A stretch of DNA of 36,436 bases from Negativicutes bacterium (lineage in GTDB: Bacteria; Bacillota; JAAYKD01): NCBI GenBank assembly GCA_021372785.1, contig JAJFTT010000035.1:1-36436 (forward strand), written 5' to 3'. The position numbers and the translations under genes are program-made. The first letter of the stretch is position 1; each line of letters begins with the position of its first letter. This document shows positions 1 through 11,621 of the stretch, one piece after another. The notes under the pieces are model-generated. The model was given only the letters and a program-made list of their open reading frames with translations, was not told the origin of the DNA and searched no databases.

Positions 1-75
1 AGCTAAAAAGCCAATTAGCAGAAAATGCCGCTGTTTGACTCTTGAAAAATGCCTCAACAGAATTTATTTTATCAG

Positions 76-111
76 CAGCAAAGAAGCCTTTCATGGTTTC
101 TTTGCTGTTTT
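76..111 (+). terminator. Rho-independent terminator of an upstream gene
   Basis: A 10-bp perfect stem (76-85 with 98-107) encloses a 12-base loop and is followed directly by TTTT. No gene is visible in 1-75, so it probably ends a gene lying left of the window. Its T-run overlaps the first Pho-box-like repeat of the pst promoter. Confidence 0.65.
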
Positions 112-148
112 ACATAGATTTTACAATAGCTGTCTTCTGTATTTTACA
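109..148 (+). promoter_or_regulatory. Pho-box-like direct repeats upstream of pstS
   Basis: TTTACA occurs at 109-114, 120-125 and 143-148. The first two starts are 11 bp apart and the third is 23 bp further, so all fall close to one face of the helix. A weaker match (TTCTGT, 135-140) lies between. Bacillus PhoP binds tandem TTAACA-like hexamers at about 11-bp period, so this is a likely activation site for the PhoP encoded at 3616-4290. No convincing -35/-10 pair is seen, which suits an activator-dependent promoter. Confidence 0.6.
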
Positions 149-187: not shown

Positions 188-1060
188 ATGAAGAAAACAC
201 TCGTTTGGCTGAGTTTACTTGGCTGTCTGATTTTTCTGCTGAGCGGCTGTAATTTTAAAGATAACGATCAATTCAGTTTGACCCACGCGATCACCATCAT
301 CAGCCGCGAAGAAGGCTCCGGCACCCGCAGCGCTTTTATTGAATTATTCGGCGTGGAAAAACTGAATGCGCGCGGTGTCTATGTTGATTACACCACACCG
401 GAAGCGGTGATCGCCGACAGCACAGCCGCTATGCTTGCCGCCGTAGCGGAGGATCCCCATACGATCGGCTATCTCTCGATTGGTTCGCTGGATGCGAGTG
501 TGACGGCGCTGAGCATCGACAGCAGCACAGCCAGCAAAGAGAATATCCTCAACGGCAGCTACCGCATGGCCCGCCCTTTCCAGCTTGTCACCGACAGAAA
601 CATTAACGGCCTGACCCAGGATTTTACCGATTTCATTCTCAGTTCCGAAGGAAAACCTATCCTCGAGTCCGCCGGTTATCTGGCTGCCGAAGGCACGGAA
701 TCTTACCTCGGCACGAAGCAACGCGGGAAAATTGTGATTGCCGGTTCCTCTTCCATCAGCCCGGTGATGGAAAAACTGAAGGCTGCTTACCTGGAACGGC
801 AGCCGGCTGTAACCGTAGAAATCCGGCAAAGCGATTCGTCTGCGGGAATTGCCGCTGTCGCCGAAGGCAGCGCTCAGCTTGGTATGTCTTCCAGAGCATT
901 GAAAGAGAACGAACTGAACCGCGGTCTCAAGGCGACTCCTTTCGCGCTGGATGGTATCGCTGTGATTGTCAACAAGCAGAATCCGGTGAAGAATCTCACA
1001 ACGGTACAGATCAGGAGCATTTTTATCGGTGAGTCTTTACGATGGGGAGATGTGATCTAA
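188..1060 (+). CDS. pstS: Phosphate ABC transporter substrate-binding lipoprotein PstS, apparently circularly permuted
   Basis: Extracytoplasmic lipoprotein that binds phosphate and delivers it to PstCA. A signal peptide ends in a lipobox (LLSGC, Cys21). The order of the PstS halves is unusual. The segment carrying SREEGSGTR, normally in the second half of PstS, starts right after the lipobox (about residues 34-175). The segment carrying GSSSISP, the SSAGI loop, SSRALKENE and DGIAVIVN, normally at the N-terminus, occupies about residues 180-290 and ends at WGDVI, just where canonical PstS continues into the GSGTR part. All expected blocks are present once and the length is normal (290 aa). 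The stop codon lies 1 base before pstC. RBS AAGGAG at 173-178. The family assignment is firm; the permutation is read from motif order. Confidence 0.9.
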   Translation: MKKTLVWLSLLGCLIFLLSGCNFKDNDQFSLTHAITIISREEGSGTRSAFIELFGVEKLNARGVYVDYTTPEAVIADSTAAMLAAVAEDPHTIGYLSIGSLDASVTALSIDSSTASKENILNGSYRMARPFQLVTDRNINGLTQDFTDFILSSEGKPILESAGYLAAEGTESYLGTKQRGKIVIAGSSSISPVMEKLKAAYLERQPAVTVEIRQSDSSAGIAAVAEGSAQLGMSSRALKENELNRGLKATPFALDGIAVIVNKQNPVKNLTTVQIRSIFIGESLRWGDVI

Positions 1061-1061
1061 G

Positions 1062-1910
1062 ATGAGGCGAAAAGAACAGGCTGCTCATTTACTTTTCTTC
1101 CTGACCGCTTGTATATCCATTGCAGCCGTGGCCCTGATTTGCTTTTTTCTTTTTGCCAACGGCATACCGGCAATGCGGCAGATCGGTTTATTCAACTTCC
1201 TGACAGGTCGTGTCTGGCGGCCATCCAATGACCTCTATGGCTTGCTGCCGATGATCATGGGCAGCCTGTATGTCACAGCCGGCGCGATTCTGCTTGGCGT
1301 ACCTTTGGGCGTTCTGACGGCGCTCTATCTGGCGCATTTCTGTTCCCGGCAGCTCTATCGTTACCTGAAACCACTGATCGATTTGCTGGCCGGCATCCCT
1401 TCCGTTGTTTACGGTTTTTTTGGCATCGTTGTGTTGGTACCGTTCGTCCGGCAAACCTTCGGCGGCAACGGCAATAGCATACTCACCGCTTCCCTCCTGT
1501 TGGGGATTATGATTCTGCCGACCATCATCGGAATTTCCGAAGCGGCTTTACGCGCTGTCCCCGTCAGCTATTACGAAGGCAGCCTGGCCCTGGGAGCCAG
1601 TCATGAACGCTCTGTTCTCTTTGCCATCCTGCCCGCGGCAAAATCCGGCATCCTGGCCGGCGTTGTGCTAGGTGTGGGACGCGCTATTGGCGAAACGATG
1701 GCTGTCATGATGGTTGCGGGTAACCAAACCCGCATGCCGGCCGGTATTTTGGCCGGAATCCGCACGCTCACCAGTAATATTGCTATGGAAATGGGTTATG
1801 CCACAGATCTGCACAGAGAGGCGCTGATTGCCACGGCGGTCGTCCTCTTTGTCTTCATTCTGATCATCAACCTCTCGTTTTCCTTGCTGAAAAGGAGGTC
1901 TGCCCTATGA
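1062..1910 (+). CDS. pstC: Phosphate ABC transporter permease PstC
   Basis: Inner-membrane permease subunit of the high-affinity phosphate importer (282 aa). It has about six hydrophobic segments, the first at residues 10-33. The binding-protein-dependent transport motif lies around residues 168-215 (EGSLALGAS, then ILAGVVLGVGRAIGET). A GIPSVVYGFFG segment near residue 110 is typical of PstC/PstA proteins. It starts 1 base after the pstS stop and overlaps pstA by 4 bases (ATGA), so translation is probably coupled. PstC pairs with PstA to form the channel energised by PstB. Confidence 0.95.
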   Translation: MRRKEQAAHLLFFLTACISIAAVALICFFLFANGIPAMRQIGLFNFLTGRVWRPSNDLYGLLPMIMGSLYVTAGAILLGVPLGVLTALYLAHFCSRQLYRYLKPLIDLLAGIPSVVYGFFGIVVLVPFVRQTFGGNGNSILTASLLLGIMILPTIIGISEAALRAVPVSYYEGSLALGASHERSVLFAILPAAKSGILAGVVLGVGRAIGETMAVMMVAGNQTRMPAGILAGIRTLTSNIAMEMGYATDLHREALIATAVVLFVFILIINLSFSLLKRRSAL

Positions 1911-2773
1911 AACACCCTGCGCGCCCGTTTCGTCTGCAGCACATTCGCGATCGGCACGACCCGCTCTCTCTGGTGATCCGATTGCTGGTTTCCCTGGCTG
2001 CCCTGCTGACCGTTGGCATTCTGCTGCTTTTGGTCGGATACATTCTGATCAAAGGAATTCCTCATCTGCGTCCCTCTCTGTTTGCACTGCATTATAACAG
2101 TGAAAACGTTTCCTTACTGCCGGCGCTGCTCAATACGCTGATGATCATTCTGCTGACGCTGATCATCGCCGTTCCGCTGGGCATCTTCTCCGCCCTCTAT
2201 CTTTCGGAATACGCCGGACGCAGCAACCGCTTTGTGCAATGGATCCGTTTAGCCACCGAAACGCTTGCCGGAATTCCCTCGATCATTTATGGTTTGTTCG
2301 GTATGCTTTTCTTCGTCACTTTTTTGCACTGGGGTTATTCTCTCCTGGCAGGTGCCTGCACCTTAGCGATTATGATTCTGCCTTTGCTGATGCGAACCAC
2401 GGAGGAGGCGCTGCATTCTGTACCGGATGCATATCGGGAGGGCAGTTACGCCCTGGGTGCCGGACGCTTGCGAACCATCTTCAATATTGTTCTACCGGCA
2501 GCGATGCCGGGCATTCTGGCCGGTGTGATTCTCAGCATCGGACGCATCGTGGGAGAATCCGCCGCCCTGATCTATACGGCGGGAACAGCCAGTCAAATTG
2601 CCAACGGCTTATTTTCTTCCGGACGCACCTTATCCGTGCATATGTATAATATCTCCAATGAAGGGTTATATCTGAATCAAACTTATGCAACCGCAGTTGT
2701 CTTGCTCATCTTGGTAGCGCTGGTCAACTGGATTTCGCATTTTGTAGCCGGCAAGCTGACGAAAGGATCTTAA
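1907..2773 (+). CDS. pstA: Phosphate ABC transporter permease PstA
   Basis: Second membrane subunit of the phosphate importer (288 aa). TM segments begin about residue 23. [12 protein letters not shown] block matches the equivalent PstC block, and the EAA-type loop reads [13 protein letters not shown] followed by [16 protein letters not shown]. The start ATG overlaps the pstC stop (ATGA), preceded by AAAGGAGG inside pstC. pstB follows after 1 base. Family position and sequence clearly separate this from pstC. It is unrelated to the c-di-AMP receptor sometimes also called PstA, which is encoded separately at 6049-6414. Confidence 0.95.
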
Positions 2774-2774
2774 T

Positions 2775-3524
2775 ATGGATAAATTTACAATTAACGATCT
2801 CAATCTTTATTATGGCGATTTTCATGCTTTAAAAAACATAAACCTGAATTTGGCAGAAAACCGCATTACCGCTTTCATCGGTCCCTCCGGCTGCGGTAAA
2901 TCTTCTCTTTTGAAATGCCTGAACCGCATGAATGACCTGATTGAAGACTGCAGAATTACAGGAGAAATTCGTCTGGACGGCGAAGACATAAACGGATCAA
3001 TGGATGTCAATCAATTGCGTAAGCGAGTCGGCATGGTTTTTCAAAACCCGAATCCTTTTCCGATGAGCATTTATGATAATGTTGCTTACGGTCCGCGCAC
3101 TCACGGCATCCGCAGCAAAGCAAAACTGGACGGCATCGTCGAGCAAGCCCTGCACGACGCCGCGATCTGGGACGAACTGCAAGGCCGCCTGAAAAAAAAC
3201 GCGCTCAGTCTTTCCGGCGGACAGCAGCAACGGCTTTGCATTGCCAGAGCTCTGGCAGTGGAACCCGAGGTTTTGCTGATGGATGAACCGACTGCCTCGC
3301 TCGATCCTATCTCCACTTCTAAAATCGAAGATTTGATTGTTGAACTGAAGAAAAAATACACGATTGTGATCGTCACCCATAATATGCAGCAGGCTGTGCG
3401 CACCTCCGATCAAACCGCTTTTTTCCTTTTGGGTGAAATTGTGGAAGCCGCTGCCACCGAGCAGTTGTTTTCCGTACCGAAAGAAAAGCGCACCGAAGAT
3501 TATATTACCGGCAGGTTCGGTTAA
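2775..3524 (+). CDS. pstB: Phosphate ABC transporter ATP-binding protein PstB
   Basis: Cytoplasmic ATPase that powers phosphate uptake (249 aa, usual length). Walker A is GPSGCGKSS near residue 37, the signature is LSGGQQQR near residue 150, Walker B is [12 protein letters not shown] near residue 170, and the switch histidine lies in VTHN. The [12 protein letters not shown] stretch after the Q-loop is characteristic of PstB. It is the last gene of the tight pst run. A 91-base gap then leads to the PhoP start, and no phoU follows, unlike many clostridial pst operons. Confidence 0.96.
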
Positions 3525-3615: not shown

Positions 3616-4290
3616 ATGATTTATTGTGTAGAGGATGATCTGAATATCAGGGAATTGATTGTTTACACGCTGCAATCCACCGGCTTTACAGCCAAGGGCT
3701 TCGCCGATGGCGAAGCTTTTTTTATGGAATTGCAGCAAAAAATGCCGGACTTGGTGATCCTCGATCTGATGCTGCCCGGTCAGGATGGCGCGTCGATCCT
3801 GAAACAGTTGCGCAGTACGGCGCAGACCGCCGATTTACCGGTGATTCTAGCCACCGCCAAAGGCAGCGAATATGACAAGGTTAGCGGACTGGATGCCGGT
3901 GCGGATGACTATATCAGTAAGCCTTTTGGCATGATGGAATTGGTTTCCCGCGTGAAAGCGGTTCTCCGCCGCAGCGGCTCAAAACAAAAAGGAGTGCTTT
4001 TGACGAGGGGCGCTTTAAGCCTCAATTCGGAAAAACATCAGGTATCCGTCAAAGGAGAAGCCATCCCGCTGACACTGAAAGAATTTTTGCTGCTGCAGCA
4101 GTTGATGTCGAATCCCGGTACGGTTTTCACCCGTGATGCTTTGCTGGCGACGATCTGGGGTTATGATTTCAGCGGTGAAACCAGAACGGTGGACGTGCAC
4201 ATTCGGACTCTGCGGCAAAAGCTGGGCGAATGCGGCAATCTGATTGAAACAGTGCGCGGGTTGGGTTACCGCATGGTGGAACAGGAATGA
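3616..4290 (+). CDS. phoP: PhoB/PhoP-type response regulator (OmpR family)
   Basis: DNA-binding response regulator, 224 aa. The receiver domain (residues 1-118) has acidic residues D7/D8, phosphoacceptor D50 in VILDLMLPG and conserved K102 in SKPF. The C-terminal winged helix (about 130-224) ends in the OmpR-type block VDVHIRTLRQKLG. The frame is open from 3433, but the ATG at 3616 (MIYCVEDD) has AGGGG upstream and begins exactly where receiver domains start. A longer protein would overlap pstB and is unlikely. It overlaps phoR by 4 bases. Its position after pstSCAB makes control of the Pho-box-like repeats at 109-148 probable. Confidence 0.9.
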   Translation: MIYCVEDDLNIRELIVYTLQSTGFTAKGFADGEAFFMELQQKMPDLVILDLMLPGQDGASILKQLRSTAQTADLPVILATAKGSEYDKVSGLDAGADDYISKPFGMMELVSRVKAVLRRSGSKQKGVLLTRGALSLNSEKHQVSVKGEAIPLTLKEFLLLQQLMSNPGTVFTRDALLATIWGYDFSGETRTVDVHIRTLRQKLGECGNLIETVRGLGYRMVEQE

Positions 4291-5978
4291 AAAGACGTAT
4301 TTTTAGGGCTTTCTGCCTGCTTTCCCTCTTTGCTGTTCTGTTGAGCGGCAGCCTCTTCTTTGCCGTCGTTTACCGGGAGGTTTCTTTCAGTAAGCAGCAG
4401 GAAGTTCGCAATGAATTGGTTCTGGTCCGCACCGGTTTTACGCAAGGCAGTCTCGCCTATCTGCAAACGCTGCAGAGCGCCCCGGAACGCAACCGTCTTT
4501 GCCGCATTACCTGGATCAGCGCCGGGGGGGTCGTCTTATTTGATAATTACGAAACTGCCGCCGCCATGGAAAATCATCTGGACCGACCGGAAATCATCAG
4601 TGCTTTACAGAATGGCAGCGGCGAAGCGCTGCGCATGTCCAGCACACTGCATCAGCAGACTTATTATTACGCCGAGCGTCTGACCGACGGTACCGTGCTG
4701 CGCCTCGCCTTAACGACTGCCAGTATCTGGGCGACTCTCTTCAATCTGCTGCCCTCTCTGCTGCTGATCATCAGTCTGGTGATCCTGCTGGCGCTTTGGC
4801 TGGCCCGGCACGAAACGCAGGCAATTATCCAGCCAATCAATGCCATCAATCTGCAAAATCCGCTTGAACAAGATACTTATGATGAATTAGCGCCGCTGCT
4901 GCTGCGTATTGAGCAGCAAAACAAAGAAATCGCCGCCAAAATGGCGGAATTATCACAGACGCGTCTGGAATTCATTACCATCACGGAAAATATGAGCAAC
5001 GGCCTGATCCTGCTTAATCAAAAAGAAGAGATTCTGACGATCAACCGCAGCGCCTGCAGAATACTGAATCTCAAAGCAGACCAGACAGTCGGCAGAAAGC
5101 TGTTGACGCAAAATCGCAGCTCAGTCCTGCAAAATCTGCTGCAGCAAGTCGAACAGGGAGAAATCGCCGAAGCTGTTCTGCAGCAAAATCAGCACAGCTA
5201 TCAGCTGTTGGCTCACCCGGTTCTGAACAAGGCGGAACTGCAGGGAATTGTGCTGCTGATTTCAGATATCACCGAACAACAAGCCACGGAACAGCTGCGC
5301 CGCGAATTTGCCGCCAATGTTTCTCACGAATTAAAAACACCGCTGCAATCGATTTCGGGCTATGCCGAAATTATCAGCAATCATCTTGTCAAAGCGGAAG
5401 ATATCCCGGAATTCGTCGATCGCATTTATCGGGAAGCCCGCCGGCTGATTGTTTTGGTGGATGACATCATGAAAATTTCCCGGTTGGATGAAAGCAAACC
5501 CAGTCTTGCAGAGGAACCGGTTGATTTGTATCTGTTGACACAGGATATTCTGCAGCGTCTGCAGCCGCAGGCGGAAGCCAAACAGGTCCGTCTGGAACTG
5601 AAAGGCGTCCCGGCAGAAATACAAGGGGTCAGACAAATCCTGGACGAGATGATTTTTAACCTGTGTGATAATGCCATCAAATACAACAAACAGGGCGGCC
5701 GCGTGGATGTTATCATCGAACGTCTGCCTTCTGCGCTGCGGCTGCGGGTCATCGATACCGGCATCGGCATTGCTCCGGAAGATCAGGAGCATGTTTTCGA
5801 GCGCTTCTATCGCGCAGATAAGAGTCATTCACAGAAAATCAGCGGTACCGGTCTGGGACTCTCGATTGTGAAACACGGAGCCCGTTATCATCACGCTGAA
5901 ATAGAACTGCAGAGTATTCCGAATCAAGGCACTGCCATCAGCCTGAGCTTCCCTTTGAGCAATAAAATTAATCTGTAA
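4287..5978 (+). CDS. phoR: PhoR-type sensor histidine kinase with PAS domain
   Basis: Membrane histidine kinase, 563 aa, expected to sense phosphate status and phosphorylate the adjacent PhoP. TM1 spans about residues 9-29 and TM2 about 151-174, framing a roughly 120-residue extracytoplasmic domain. A HAMP-like/coiled linker follows, then a PAS domain (about 230-330, from ITENMSNGLILL). The HisKA box FAANVSHELKTP places the phosphorylated His at 347. The ATPase has an N box around N462, DTGIGI (G1) and GTGLGLSIVKH (G2). This layout matches Gram-positive PhoR. The start ATGA overlaps the phoP stop. Confidence 0.9.
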   Translation: MKRRIFRAFCLLSLFAVLLSGSLFFAVVYREVSFSKQQEVRNELVLVRTGFTQGSLAYLQTLQSAPERNRLCRITWISAGGVVLFDNYETAAAMENHLDRPEIISALQNGSGEALRMSSTLHQQTYYYAERLTDGTVLRLALTTASIWATLFNLLPSLLLIISLVILLALWLARHETQAIIQPINAINLQNPLEQDTYDELAPLLLRIEQQNKEIAAKMAELSQTRLEFITITENMSNGLILLNQKEEILTINRSACRILNLKADQTVGRKLLTQNRSSVLQNLLQQVEQGEIAEAVLQQNQHSYQLLAHPVLNKAELQGIVLLISDITEQQATEQLRREFAANVSHELKTPLQSISGYAEIISNHLVKAEDIPEFVDRIYREARRLIVLVDDIMKISRLDESKPSLAEEPVDLYLLTQDILQRLQPQAEAKQVRLELKGVPAEIQGVRQILDEMIFNLCDNAIKYNKQGGRVDVIIERLPSALRLRVIDTGIGIAPEDQEHVFERFYRADKSHSQKISGTGLGLSIVKHGARYHHAEIELQSIPNQGTAISLSFPLSNKINL

Positions 5979-6667: not shown

Positions 6668-8965
6668 ATGTTAAAAAAAATCATTTGTATGAGCCTGATT
6701 GCCCTTTTAATCATGACCATGACACCCGTTGTCTGCGCTGCGGAACTGCCTGCTCTGCCGACCGGGACCGCAAAAGAAGCAACAGGGATGAGCGGCGGTG
6801 AGACCGTCAACGAACGCTTGGGCAAGGTCGCTCTGTCCGTCAAGCAGACCCTCAATCTGGATGACCGCTACACAACCTTCTATGGCAGCTTGAACGAAGA
6901 TATCATTGATTCCTACTGGAACCTGAATTGGTCCAATGCGCAGGAAACTCTCACAGTCTATGCCAAAGAAAGTGGCAAAGTGATGCAGTATCAACGCAAT
7001 CGTACTGCTGACGACCATGATTACGCTTACAAATATGGCCCGGAGTTCTCGCCGGTTTTTCCTGCCAATCGCAAAATTGACGCAAAACCAGTCGCTGAAG
7101 CCTTTGTTTCTGCTTTATTGACCGCAGAAGAATCTGCCGTCTTTGAACCGACGGATGCCCTGGAATTACTCTCCGCAACAACTTATGGTTTTAGCGGCAG
7201 AATTCAAATGTACGGCCTTGATACCGGTATCACCTTCACGGTCAGCGTTTTTGCGGACGATTTGACCATCAACAGATTTTACCGCAGCGATGCCAACACC
7301 AAAATGATCAACGACTTCTCCGATACGGTTACGATGATCGATGCCGCGGCTGCAGCGGCAAAGCTGCGCACGACGGTTAAACTGCAGCTGCAATATGTGC
7401 TGAGGGATACGGCCCCCGGCGAACCCATCCTGCCGAAGCCGGCGGGGAGTAAAACAACTGCAGATACTGCTGCTACCCAGGCAGTCTTACGCTATCTGCC
7501 TATGACCGACAGCAATTATCTCGTTGATGCCAAAACGGGCGAACTGATTGATATCACCGATTTATACGATGCTTTTAACCGGGCCAATCAAACGGTAAAA
7601 ACGCCTGCCGGGATGGGTTCCTCCGACTCAAGCCCCTATCTTCCTGCACTCAGCGAAGCGGAACTGACAGGCATTGAGAAACTCAAAGATGTCCTCAGCA
7701 AAGAGGAATTGCAGGCAGCCGTTAAAGCCATGCCGGAAGTCATGCTGGATGACAACTATACGCTTACCGGTTACAACTTCTATTTAAACGAAGAAAACGG
7801 CGATGTGACTGCCTATTTAAACTTCAGTAAACCCTACAGTGAAAACAACTATCAATTTTACCGCAAATCCGCCGTTCTGAATGGCAAGACCGGAGAATTA
7901 ATCTCCTTCTCCTCTTCCTATCCCTACGATGAAAAAGCGGCATACCCTGTTTTTCTGACGAAAGAACAGGCAGCCGTAAAAGCCGCCGCTTTCCTGAATC
8001 GTTACTTTGCAGGCCATTTCGCTGTCGCAGATTTGTATACTTCTGTAACTCCGCTGGAAACTGAGCATACCGCGACAGAGTATCGGTTCACCTACAGCCA
8101 AAAAGTCAACGGCTATTTCTTCCCTGTCAATGCCATGATGATCAGCATCAATGCCCAAAGCGGCGCGGTCGACAGCTTCAATCAGAACTGGCTGGAGGAT
8201 ATCGTCTTCGATCAGGCCGATGGAATCATTCCGATGACGCAAGCGGAAGAGATTTATGCCGCCGCTCATACCGCCAAACTGCAGTATCTGCAGCTGCCTG
8301 TGACTGTGGACCCCGAATCTCCTTATTATATTCTCTATTCCAAATATGGTTACGCTTACCTGTATGAATATCGTCTGGCCTATCAGTACAGCATCGCCGA
8401 TGCTGTCCACGGCATTGATGCAAAAACCGGAGAACTATTGCAAGATACTTCACCGATCGCCTACGCAGTACCCGTATACACCGATTTAGGCGCACATTAT
8501 GCGAAAACTGAAATTGAAATCCTCGCCCAATACGGCATCGGCTTCAGCGGAAATCAATATCAGCCGGAAGCTGAGCTGACGCAGCGTGAAATGCTGGTCT
8601 ATCTCCTGCAGGCAGCCGGTTTCCGCAACCCTATGGAGGATGATTCGCTCTATCAAACAGCCTACTCGCTGCATCTGCTGACAGAAACGGAACGCGCCCC
8701 CGCCTCGATTGTCAGCCGTACTCAATTTGTGAAAACGCTGCTGAGCATGTCCGGGTACGATAAAATTGCCCATCTCTCTGAAATTTTTGTCTGTAAATTT
8801 CTAGATGAAGCGGCGATTGCAGCAGAAAACTATGGCTACATTGCAATCGCCCAAGGCTTAGGGATTATTCATGGCGATCCCAGCGGCAATTTTCATGCCG
8901 ATTCAGCCACCACCAGAGCTACGGCAGCCGTGATGTTCTTCAATTTTCTCAATCGGGAAAACTAA
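6668..8965 (+). CDS. Secreted YcdB/YcdC-domain protein with C-terminal SLH domains
   Basis: A 765-aa exported protein with a signal peptide (about residues 1-25, cleavage near VCAAEL). The body (about 40-590) carries repeated YcdB/YcdC-like (PepSY-related) units, recognisable by motifs such as VDAKTGELIDIT, LNGKTGELISFSSSYPY and IDAKTGELLQDTS. The C-terminus (about 605-765) holds SLH-type segments, best seen as QPEAELTQREMLVYLLQAAGF and GLGIIHGDPSGNFHADSATTRATAAVMF, which should anchor it to secondary cell-wall polymer. RBS AAGGAGG is well placed and terminators flank it, so it is monocistronic. The biochemical role of YcdB/YcdC units is unknown; inhibition of an exported enzyme by the PepSY-like units is only a guess. 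Confidence 0.8.
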   Translation: MLKKIICMSLIALLIMTMTPVVCAAELPALPTGTAKEATGMSGGETVNERLGKVALSVKQTLNLDDRYTTFYGSLNEDIIDSYWNLNWSNAQETLTVYAKESGKVMQYQRNRTADDHDYAYKYGPEFSPVFPANRKIDAKPVAEAFVSALLTAEESAVFEPTDALELLSATTYGFSGRIQMYGLDTGITFTVSVFADDLTINRFYRSDANTKMINDFSDTVTMIDAAAAAAKLRTTVKLQLQYVLRDTAPGEPILPKPAGSKTTADTAATQAVLRYLPMTDSNYLVDAKTGELIDITDLYDAFNRANQTVKTPAGMGSSDSSPYLPALSEAELTGIEKLKDVLSKEELQAAVKAMPEVMLDDNYTLTGYNFYLNEENGDVTAYLNFSKPYSENNYQFYRKSAVLNGKTGELISFSSSYPYDEKAAYPVFLTKEQAAVKAAAFLNRYFAGHFAVADLYTSVTPLETEHTATEYRFTYSQKVNGYFFPVNAMMISINAQSGAVDSFNQNWLEDIVFDQADGIIPMTQAEEIYAAAHTAKLQYLQLPVTVDPESPYYILYSKYGYAYLYEYRLAYQYSIADAVHGIDAKTGELLQDTSPIAYAVPVYTDLGAHYAKTEIEILAQYGIGFSGNQYQPEAELTQREMLVYLLQAAGFRNPMEDDSLYQTAYSLHLLTETERAPASIVSRTQFVKTLLSMSGYDKIAHLSEIFVCKFLDEAAIAAENYGYIAIAQGLGIIHGDPSGNFHADSATTRATAAVMFFNFLNREN

Positions 8966-9980: not shown

Positions 9981-10019
9981 AAATCCCGCTCTGACTGCCG
10001 GGCAATCAGAGCGGGATTT
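9981..10019. terminator. Bidirectional terminator between ribU and hcp
   Basis: A 14-bp perfect stem (9981-9994 with 10006-10019) with an 11-base loop. T-rich sequence (CGTTTTTG) follows on the plus strand and an A-rich stretch precedes it, serving the minus strand. It separates convergent ribU and hcp. Confidence 0.85.
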
Positions 10020-10028
10020 CGTTTTTGA

Positions 10029-11621
10029 CTAGCCCAGGATTTTCTTCAAATCCGCTTCGGGAGTACTGGTCGGAGTCAGATTGAAGTTCTCTACCAGGTA
10101 ATTGAGCACGTTGGCTGAAATAAAACTTGGCAGCGTCGGTCCGAGATAGATATTCTTTATTCCCAGAGAAAGCAGTGTCAATAAGATACAGACTGCTTTT
10201 TGCTCATACCAGGAAAGCACCAGGGTGAGCGGCAATTCGTTGACACCGCATTGGAAAGCGTCTGCCAGGGCGAGCGCTACTTTGATCGCGCTGTAGGCGT
10301 CGTTGCATTGGCCCATGTCCATGATCCGCGGCAAACCGCCGATTGTCCCAAGGTTTAAATCATTGAAACGGTATTTGCCGCAGGCCAAGGTCAGGATTAC
10401 CGTATCGGCCGGCGTCTGTTTGACAAATTCGGTATAGTAATTGCGACCGGGTTTGGCTCCGTCGCAGCCGCCCACCAAGAAGATGTGTTTGATCGCTCCG
10501 GTTTTGACCGCATCGATGACAGTTCCGGCTACGGCAAGTACGGCGCCGTGTGCAAAACCTGTCATCACTTCATGTCCGCCGTTGATACCGGTCAGCATGG
10601 TGTCTTCCTGATAACCGCCCAATTGCAGCGCTTTTTCAATCAGCGGGCTGAAATTTTTCTCAGCGCCGATATGGACAACCGCGGGATAACCGACGACTTC
10701 TGTGGTGAAAACACGATCCTGATAGCTGTCTTTCGGCGGCATCAGACAATTGGTGGTGAACAAGATCGGCGCCGGCAGATTGGCAAATTCTTTCTGCTGA
10801 TTCTGCCAGGCGGTGCCGAAATTGCCCTTCAGGTGCGGATACGCTTTCAATTTTGGATAACCGTGCGCCGGCAGCATTTCACCATGAGTATAGATATTGA
10901 TACCTTTGCCTGCGGTCTGCTCTAAGAGCAGCTCTAAATCTTTCAGATCATGACCGGTTATCACAATAAACGGTCCTTTTTCAATGGTCAGCGGAACCAC
11001 AGTGGGTACCGGTGTGCCGTATGTTTCGGTATTGGCACGGTCCAGCAGCTCCATACATTGTAAATTGACGCTGCCGACTTCCATCACAATGGGCAGCAAT
11101 TCCGCCATGCCCCAGTCTTCACCGATGGCAGACATCCCTTTATAGAAGAATTGATTGACTTTCTCGTCCGAATATCCCAGCACCATGGCGTGATAAGCGT
11201 AAGCAGACATGCCGCGCAAACCGAAAAGAATCAGAGATTTGAGAGAACGGATATCCACATCCGCCTGCCAGACCTTCTCCATCGGGTAATCCTCGTTGGT
11301 GCAACAGGGCGTGGCGCAGCCGCTGCATTGCGGCACCAGCATGGCTTTGACCGCATTGACTTTTGCGATCATGGCATGAATTGTTTCATCGTTGAAATTC
11401 ACATTGGTAATGGTGGTAAAGAGACCTTCCAGCATGACTTGATTGGCTGCGGCAAAGGCGGTCTTGTCCTTCATTGCCCGGGCGAGACCAATCAAAGCAC
11501 CGGTTAATTCGTCCTGTAGCGCAGCGGTCGGCGCTTGTTTGCCGCAGATACCGGCTTTCCCCATACAACCCTTGCCGCCTGCAGTCTGTTCACATTGAAA
11601 GCAAAACATTTGATTTTCCAT
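10029..11621 (-). CDS. hcp: Hybrid cluster protein (hydroxylamine reductase)
   Basis: Hcp is a cytoplasmic Fe-S/hybrid-cluster enzyme that reduces hydroxylamine in vitro and is linked to NO detoxification and protein S-nitrosylation in other bacteria. The 530-aa product has the N-terminal cluster motif with Cys7, Cys10, Cys19 and Cys26, and later hybrid-cluster regions including TNCLMPPKDSY, HIFLVGGCDGAKPGR, LACGKYRF and the MGQCNDAYSA segment. RBS AAGGAGG is in place. It is the last gene of a leftward run (4Fe-4S protein, cupin, hcp) with gaps of 13 and 26 bases. Control is probably by the divergent Crp/Fnr protein. Confidence 0.95.
   Translation of the reverse strand: MENQMFCFQCEQTAGGKGCMGKAGICGKQAPTAALQDELTGALIGLARAMKDKTAFAAANQVMLEGLFTTITNVNFNDETIHAMIAKVNAVKAMLVPQCSGCATPCCTNEDYPMEKVWQADVDIRSLKSLILFGLRGMSAYAYHAMVLGYSDEKVNQFFYKGMSAIGEDWGMAELLPIVMEVGSVNLQCMELLDRANTETYGTPVPTVVPLTIEKGPFIVITGHDLKDLELLLEQTAGKGINIYTHGEMLPAHGYPKLKAYPHLKGNFGTAWQNQQKEFANLPAPILFTTNCLMPPKDSYQDRVFTTEVVGYPAVVHIGAEKNFSPLIEKALQLGGYQEDTMLTGINGGHEVMTGFAHGAVLAVAGTVIDAVKTGAIKHIFLVGGCDGAKPGRNYYTEFVKQTPADTVILTLACGKYRFNDLNLGTIGGLPRIMDMGQCNDAYSAIKVALALADAFQCGVNELPLTLVLSWYEQKAVCILLTLLSLGIKNIYLGPTLPSFISANVLNYLVENFNLTPTSTPEADLKKILG

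Follow-up and report, generated by a model that had tools for sequence, protein, structure and literature searches.

A circularly permuted PstS lipoprotein at the head of a pst operon, and the subfamily that it shares with pneumococcal SP_2084

The permuted pstS gene and its operon

We analysed a 36,436-nucleotide stretch of DNA from a Negativicutes bacterium (the window), in which the gene at 188–1060 stands at the head of a pstSCAB operon. The permeases and the ATPase encoded directly after it, looked for as a mark of the permuted subfamily discussed below, score above the cut-offs of their family models, and a response regulator and a histidine kinase follow. The features of the locus and of the leading gene are as follows:

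109–125, forward strand: Pho-box of the form TTTACA-N5-TTTACA, TTTACATAGATTTTACA, 62 bases 5′ of the start codon
188–1060, forward strand: circularly permuted PstS lipoprotein, 290 aa plus stop, an ORF with ATG start; PF12849 and TIGR02136 match in two reversed stretches, 4h1x colinearly
188–250, forward strand: lipoprotein signal peptide read from the sequence, with lipobox LLSGC and Cys21, which is invariant in 13 permuted homologues
290–685, forward strand: second half of canonical PstS (residues 35–166: REEGSGTR, IGYLSIGS, ARPF, DFILSSEG), aligning to the canonical C-terminal half
686–724, forward strand: linker (residues 167–179) between what are the C and N termini of canonical PstS, from the alignment of homologues
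725–1057, forward strand: first half of canonical PstS (residues 180–290: GSSSISP, SSAGI, GMSSRALK, DGIAVIVN, WGDVI), aligning to the canonical N-terminal half
1062–1910, forward strand: pstC permease (TIGR02138, 294.6 bits, above cut-off)
1907–2773, forward strand: pstA permease (TIGR00974, 283 bits, above cut-off)
2775–3524, forward strand: pstB ATPase (TIGR00972, 405.6 bits, above cut-off)
3616–4290, forward strand: OmpR/PhoB-type response regulator (PF00072 and PF00486)
4287–5978, forward strand: PhoR-like histidine kinase with PAS-HisKA-HATPase architecture (PF00989, PF00512, PF02518)

The same arrangement recurs at homologous loci, where pstC follows the permuted pstS in nearly all cases examined, usually together with pstA and pstB. 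In the alignment, homologues have a linker pattern partly in common, roughly GYIxxxDxxAYxGxxxSGK. The Pho-box is accompanied by a third TTTACA at position 143. Its exact form, TTTACA-N5-TTTACA, is found once in the window, in none of 100 shuffles of it and once in the 2.1-Mb genome; a looser pattern with two mismatches allowed reached no significance, whereas the exact published form did. According to PMC4913102, the pneumococcal Pho-box before pstS1, TTTACACAATCTTTACA, has this same form. Near the pst operon, the window also encodes a cyclic-di-AMP receptor (PF06153, 6049–6414) and a protein of 765 aa that combines a YcdB/YcdC repeat domain with an S-layer homology domain (6668–8965).

Order of the halves in sequence and structure

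The first-pass annotation, made from the sequence alone, had read the protein as a PstS in which the second half (with GSGTR) precedes the first (GSSSISP to WGDV). PF12849 and TIGR02136 each align to the 290-aa protein in two stretches, the C-terminal stretch corresponding to the start of the model; the best TIGR02136 stretch places residues 170–289 on model positions 29–155 of 295. A PF12849 scan of the whole genome assigns bases 284–649 to model positions 131–267 and bases 710–1072 to positions 5–126. Phmmer searches against the canonical crystal structures 4gd5, 4q8r and 1twy likewise return two swapped stretches, and a BLASTP comparison with the genome's own canonical PstS aligns residues 35–152 with 118–226 (44% identity) and residues 182–286 with 6–108 (47% identity). 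Since both profile scans and BLASTP show the swap, as do the comparisons with canonical structures, the initial description of the order was right. Each block occurs once in a protein of normal length, and the data support a clean circular permutation at the hinge, neither a truncation nor a fusion. Canonical PstS, represented by the TIGR02136/PF12849 models, the three crystal structures and the copy on contig C36, thus shares with the window protein the two half-domains, the phosphate-site motifs and 44–47% identity per half, and differs in that the order of halves is reversed. The TIGR02136 score of 171.2 bits, collected in two reversed stretches, falls below the curated cut-off of 206.6 because the alignment is split in two. 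For annotation this means that order-sensitive family models split or under-score permuted PstS proteins, here with 171 bits against the 206.6 required.

The beginning of the contig, just 187 bases 5′ of the gene and beside a likely contig break, could raise the suspicion that an assembly artefact or a frame error swapped the halves. We regard this as vanishingly improbable, because the ORF is intact, with the signal peptide leading and pstC directly after, and because a second copy in the genome and independent genomes carry the same order of halves. The swapped order is neither chance nor an assembly artefact: the paralogue on another contig and dozens of homologues agree.

A search of PDB sequences returned 4h1x as best match, in one stretch that runs from residues 31–287 to 7–262 (E 5.8e-53). 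The alignment is colinear and full-length with the GSGTR half first, the feature looked for in a permuted subfamily of the SP_2084/4h1x type. The AlphaFold model, built from 13 permuted homologues, shows a two-lobe fold (pLDDT 85.8, pTM 0.77). Foldseek with the predicted fold again ranks 4h1x first, with a TM-score of 0.91 by target length, 2.1 Å and about 40% identity. The other matches listed have TM-scores below 0.5, as expected because the aligner keeps sequence order; OpuAC chains come next after 4h1x. Superposition without permutation had been named in advance as a refuting outcome; it does occur, in that the best structural match superposes unpermuted, and it counts against the implied novelty of the arrangement.

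The structure 4h1x is SP_2084, PstS of S. pneumoniae TIGR4, released on 2012-10-17. It resembles the window protein in its permuted order, its colinearity over residues 31–287, its identity of about 40% and its TM-score of 0.91. The PDB name, "PstS 2", is at odds with the membership of SP_2084 in Pst1. We considered that 4h1x might be PstS2 of the Pst2 system, as its PDB name suggests, and rejected this: PMC6722419 identifies SP_2084-8 as the Pst1 operon under PnpRS control, and PMC11075461 keeps the name pstS2 for SP_1400. PMC4913102 terms Pst1 and Pst2 evolutionarily distinct and does not mention permutation.

Distribution and ancestry of the permuted order

Of 399 genomes sampled from the phylum, 12 have the permuted form. 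Eleven of these carry colinear relatives of full or near full length with 41–51% identity; in the twelfth (G002, same order), the identity is 33%. In named genomes, we searched with an alignment as query and scored the best 80 loci by motif order, which gave 77 permuted ORFs and no canonical one; one more of these loci (L045) is a single residue short of the motif and reads as permuted. A single-sequence scan of the genome contigs had returned no match, whereas the alignment-based scan did find homologues. Hosts of the permuted form among the matches listed include Streptococcus mitis, S. hyointestinalis, Thermoclostridium caenicola, Dorea, Anaerotignum and many Lachnospiraceae, the Actinomycetota Adlercreutzia and Parvibacter, and MAGs named Treponema and Desulfovibrionaceae.

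For a phylogeny, each protein was cut into its halves and canonical order was restored before alignment, yielding 67 rows (46 permuted, 17 canonical and 4 tandem domains). A branch with a support of 98/93 in the careful tree separates all 46 permuted rows from the canonical and tandem ones, and the window protein lies inside this permuted side as sister to its paralogue (L009), the grouping that membership in the permuted subfamily predicts. The topology fits one old permutation with later transfer between phyla; as the canonical rows are the nearest available and the tree has no outgroup, it agrees with a single origin without proving it. At the edge, on a long branch, stands the very divergent permuted PstS of G002, a genome from the same order (L007, 626–1561; 33% identity). 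Fast evolution within the group or a separate, second permutation could account for it. The careful tree allows the permuted side with L007 (98/93) and without it (98/98), so this protein may have a second origin.

Duplication is the standard route to circular permutation. Most likely there was a single event, in which tandem duplicates fused and then lost their outer halves; the permuted gene would afterwards have been inherited and transferred. Such a permutation would retain the fold and alter which strand bears the lipid anchor. Two single ORFs on the reverse strand, of 544 and 531 aa (L024 and L025, genomes G311/G354), each contain two complete canonical PstS domains. We considered these tandem double proteins as an evolutionary intermediate and discarded the idea, since they cluster with canonical proteins, apart from the permuted clade; for the same reason, the duplication route has no documented true intermediate. 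An Anaerotignum MAG (L086) carries the permuted pstS twice in tandem, at 394–1260 and 1536–2303. Tandem double PstS ORFs together with tandem permuted pstS genes, in this MAG and probably at the window locus, are evidence of duplication at loci of this kind.

A unique, recent permutation private to the source organism, a reading to which the absence of any description of permuted PstS in the searchable literature might lend some colour, is hardly conceivable given that 4h1x and dozens of genomes from several phyla have the same order, with linkers at least partly similar, and that the window protein sits inside the permuted clade beside its own paralogue. With the same order in many gut bacteria, in streptococci and in a crystal structure from 2012, the window PstS therefore belongs, as an ordinary member, to an existing permuted subfamily that has drawn little remark. 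The first-pass annotation knew of no description of the arrangement and held that many homologues already annotated with such order as a standard subfamily would count against it. The order itself has long been present, in 4h1x and in many homologues that share it as a standing subfamily; what survives of the claim is that neither a description of the permutation of PstS nor a paper calling these homologues permuted was found among open-access texts. It is quite possible, although we would not count on it, that no one has yet described the permuted PstS clade as a whole as circularly permuted, despite its presence in the PDB and in many genomes. If so, it would be an extensive natural example of an importer receptor that was permuted once, long ago, and that still works, exists alongside canonical copies and duplicates next to itself.

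Circular permutation is on record for other binding proteins. Tp0684/MglB-2 of Treponema pallidum is a natural circular permutation for which the class of Type Ic, or Cluster Bc, binding proteins was proposed (PMC4990184). It resembles the window protein as a lipoprotein receptor of an ABC importer that is naturally permuted and retains ligand binding (PMC4990184), but it belongs to the Type I fold class, binds a sugar and is permuted within part of one lobe. The CPSARST circular-permutation family brings together glycine-betaine-binding proteins (OpuAC, ProX), molybdate-binding proteins and CysB, which have a binding-protein fold and are related by circular permutation (PMC2395249); unlike the proteins studied here, they are not PstS and share far lower sequence identity.

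Phosphate binding and the receptors of the genome

Across the 13 permuted homologues, R40, E41, G43–R47, G186–S189, S215, S217, S235, R236, D255 and G256 are invariant. The phosphate-site motifs of both lobes (RxxGSGTR, GSSS, SSR and DG), which we take to be phosphate contacts from established PstS structures, are thus present in the window protein and conserved throughout this set. The pneumococcal system offers the closest parallel. There, SP_2084-8 is likewise a pst operon under a two-component system, PnpRS, with a Pho-box of the form TTTACA-N5-TTTACA (PMC6722419, PMC4913102), and Pst1 is induced by low phosphate and takes part in phosphate uptake (PMC4913102). The pneumococcal operon ends with phoU1 and has its regulator pair upstream in an operon of its own, whereas the window operon is without phoU and has the response regulator and kinase directly after pstB.

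From the operon with pstCAB and a regulator pair, the unique Pho-box, the invariant motifs and the pneumococcal Pst1 parallel, we infer that the window protein, from the permuted subfamily whose best-known member is SP_2084, very likely serves a Pst ABC importer as its extracellular phosphate receptor. After export, it would be lipid-anchored at Cys21 and hold phosphate between the lobes, to which one lobe would contribute R40, S44, G45 and T46 and the other its GSSS, SSAG and SSR loops. Once closed, the receptor would dock on PstC/PstA, with PstB driving import, and the neighbouring two-component system would induce the operon in low phosphate.

Besides the window protein, the genome encodes a canonical PstS, accompanied on contig C36 by PstCAB and PhoU of its own, and on contig C42 another permuted PstS, so that the receptors may be specialised, and a permuted PstS-fold receptor could have another oxyanion as main ligand or serve mainly in sensing. 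We consider this improbable for the window protein, whose phosphate-site motifs are invariant, whose permeases and ATPase score above phosphate-specific cut-offs, whose gene is preceded by a Pho-box and whose pneumococcal relative belongs to a phosphate uptake system induced by low phosphate (PMC4913102, PMC6722419). Phosphate reception by the window protein is thus the reading that we retain. The canonical locus (L122; genome G000, contig C36, about 34.8–39.7 kb) comprises pstS, its own pstC and pstA, two pstB and phoU, and the genome therefore has two Pst systems with receptors that differ in half order. The permuted PstS leaves the understanding of phosphate uptake unchanged. With a structure solved for one representative and a canonical paralogue encoded in its own genome, this natural permutant makes a handy system for relating the position of termini and lipid anchor to docking on the permease.

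The paralogue on contig C42 has the same permuted order and 54% identity over residues 1–290. Its gene is the last on that contig, which ends 34 bases past the stop codon, and the two contig ends share one short sequence:

1–19, forward strand: 19-base overlap with the end of C42, identical to positions 10016–10034 of locus L121, which lies there; a 19-mer with no occurrence beyond these two contig ends

Because this overlap, which has no other occurrence in the 2.1-Mb genome, joins the end of C42 to the start of the window, the two contigs are probably adjacent, with the two permuted pstS genes in tandem. The genome contains no leftover pstC or pstB for the C42 copy. The unique 19-mer and the lack of a spare pstC or pstB make pstS(C42)-pstS(window)-pstC-pstA-pstB-regulator-kinase the likely gene order across this putative join. 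Short AGCTAAAA repeats lie at the C42/window junction and may have broken the assembly.
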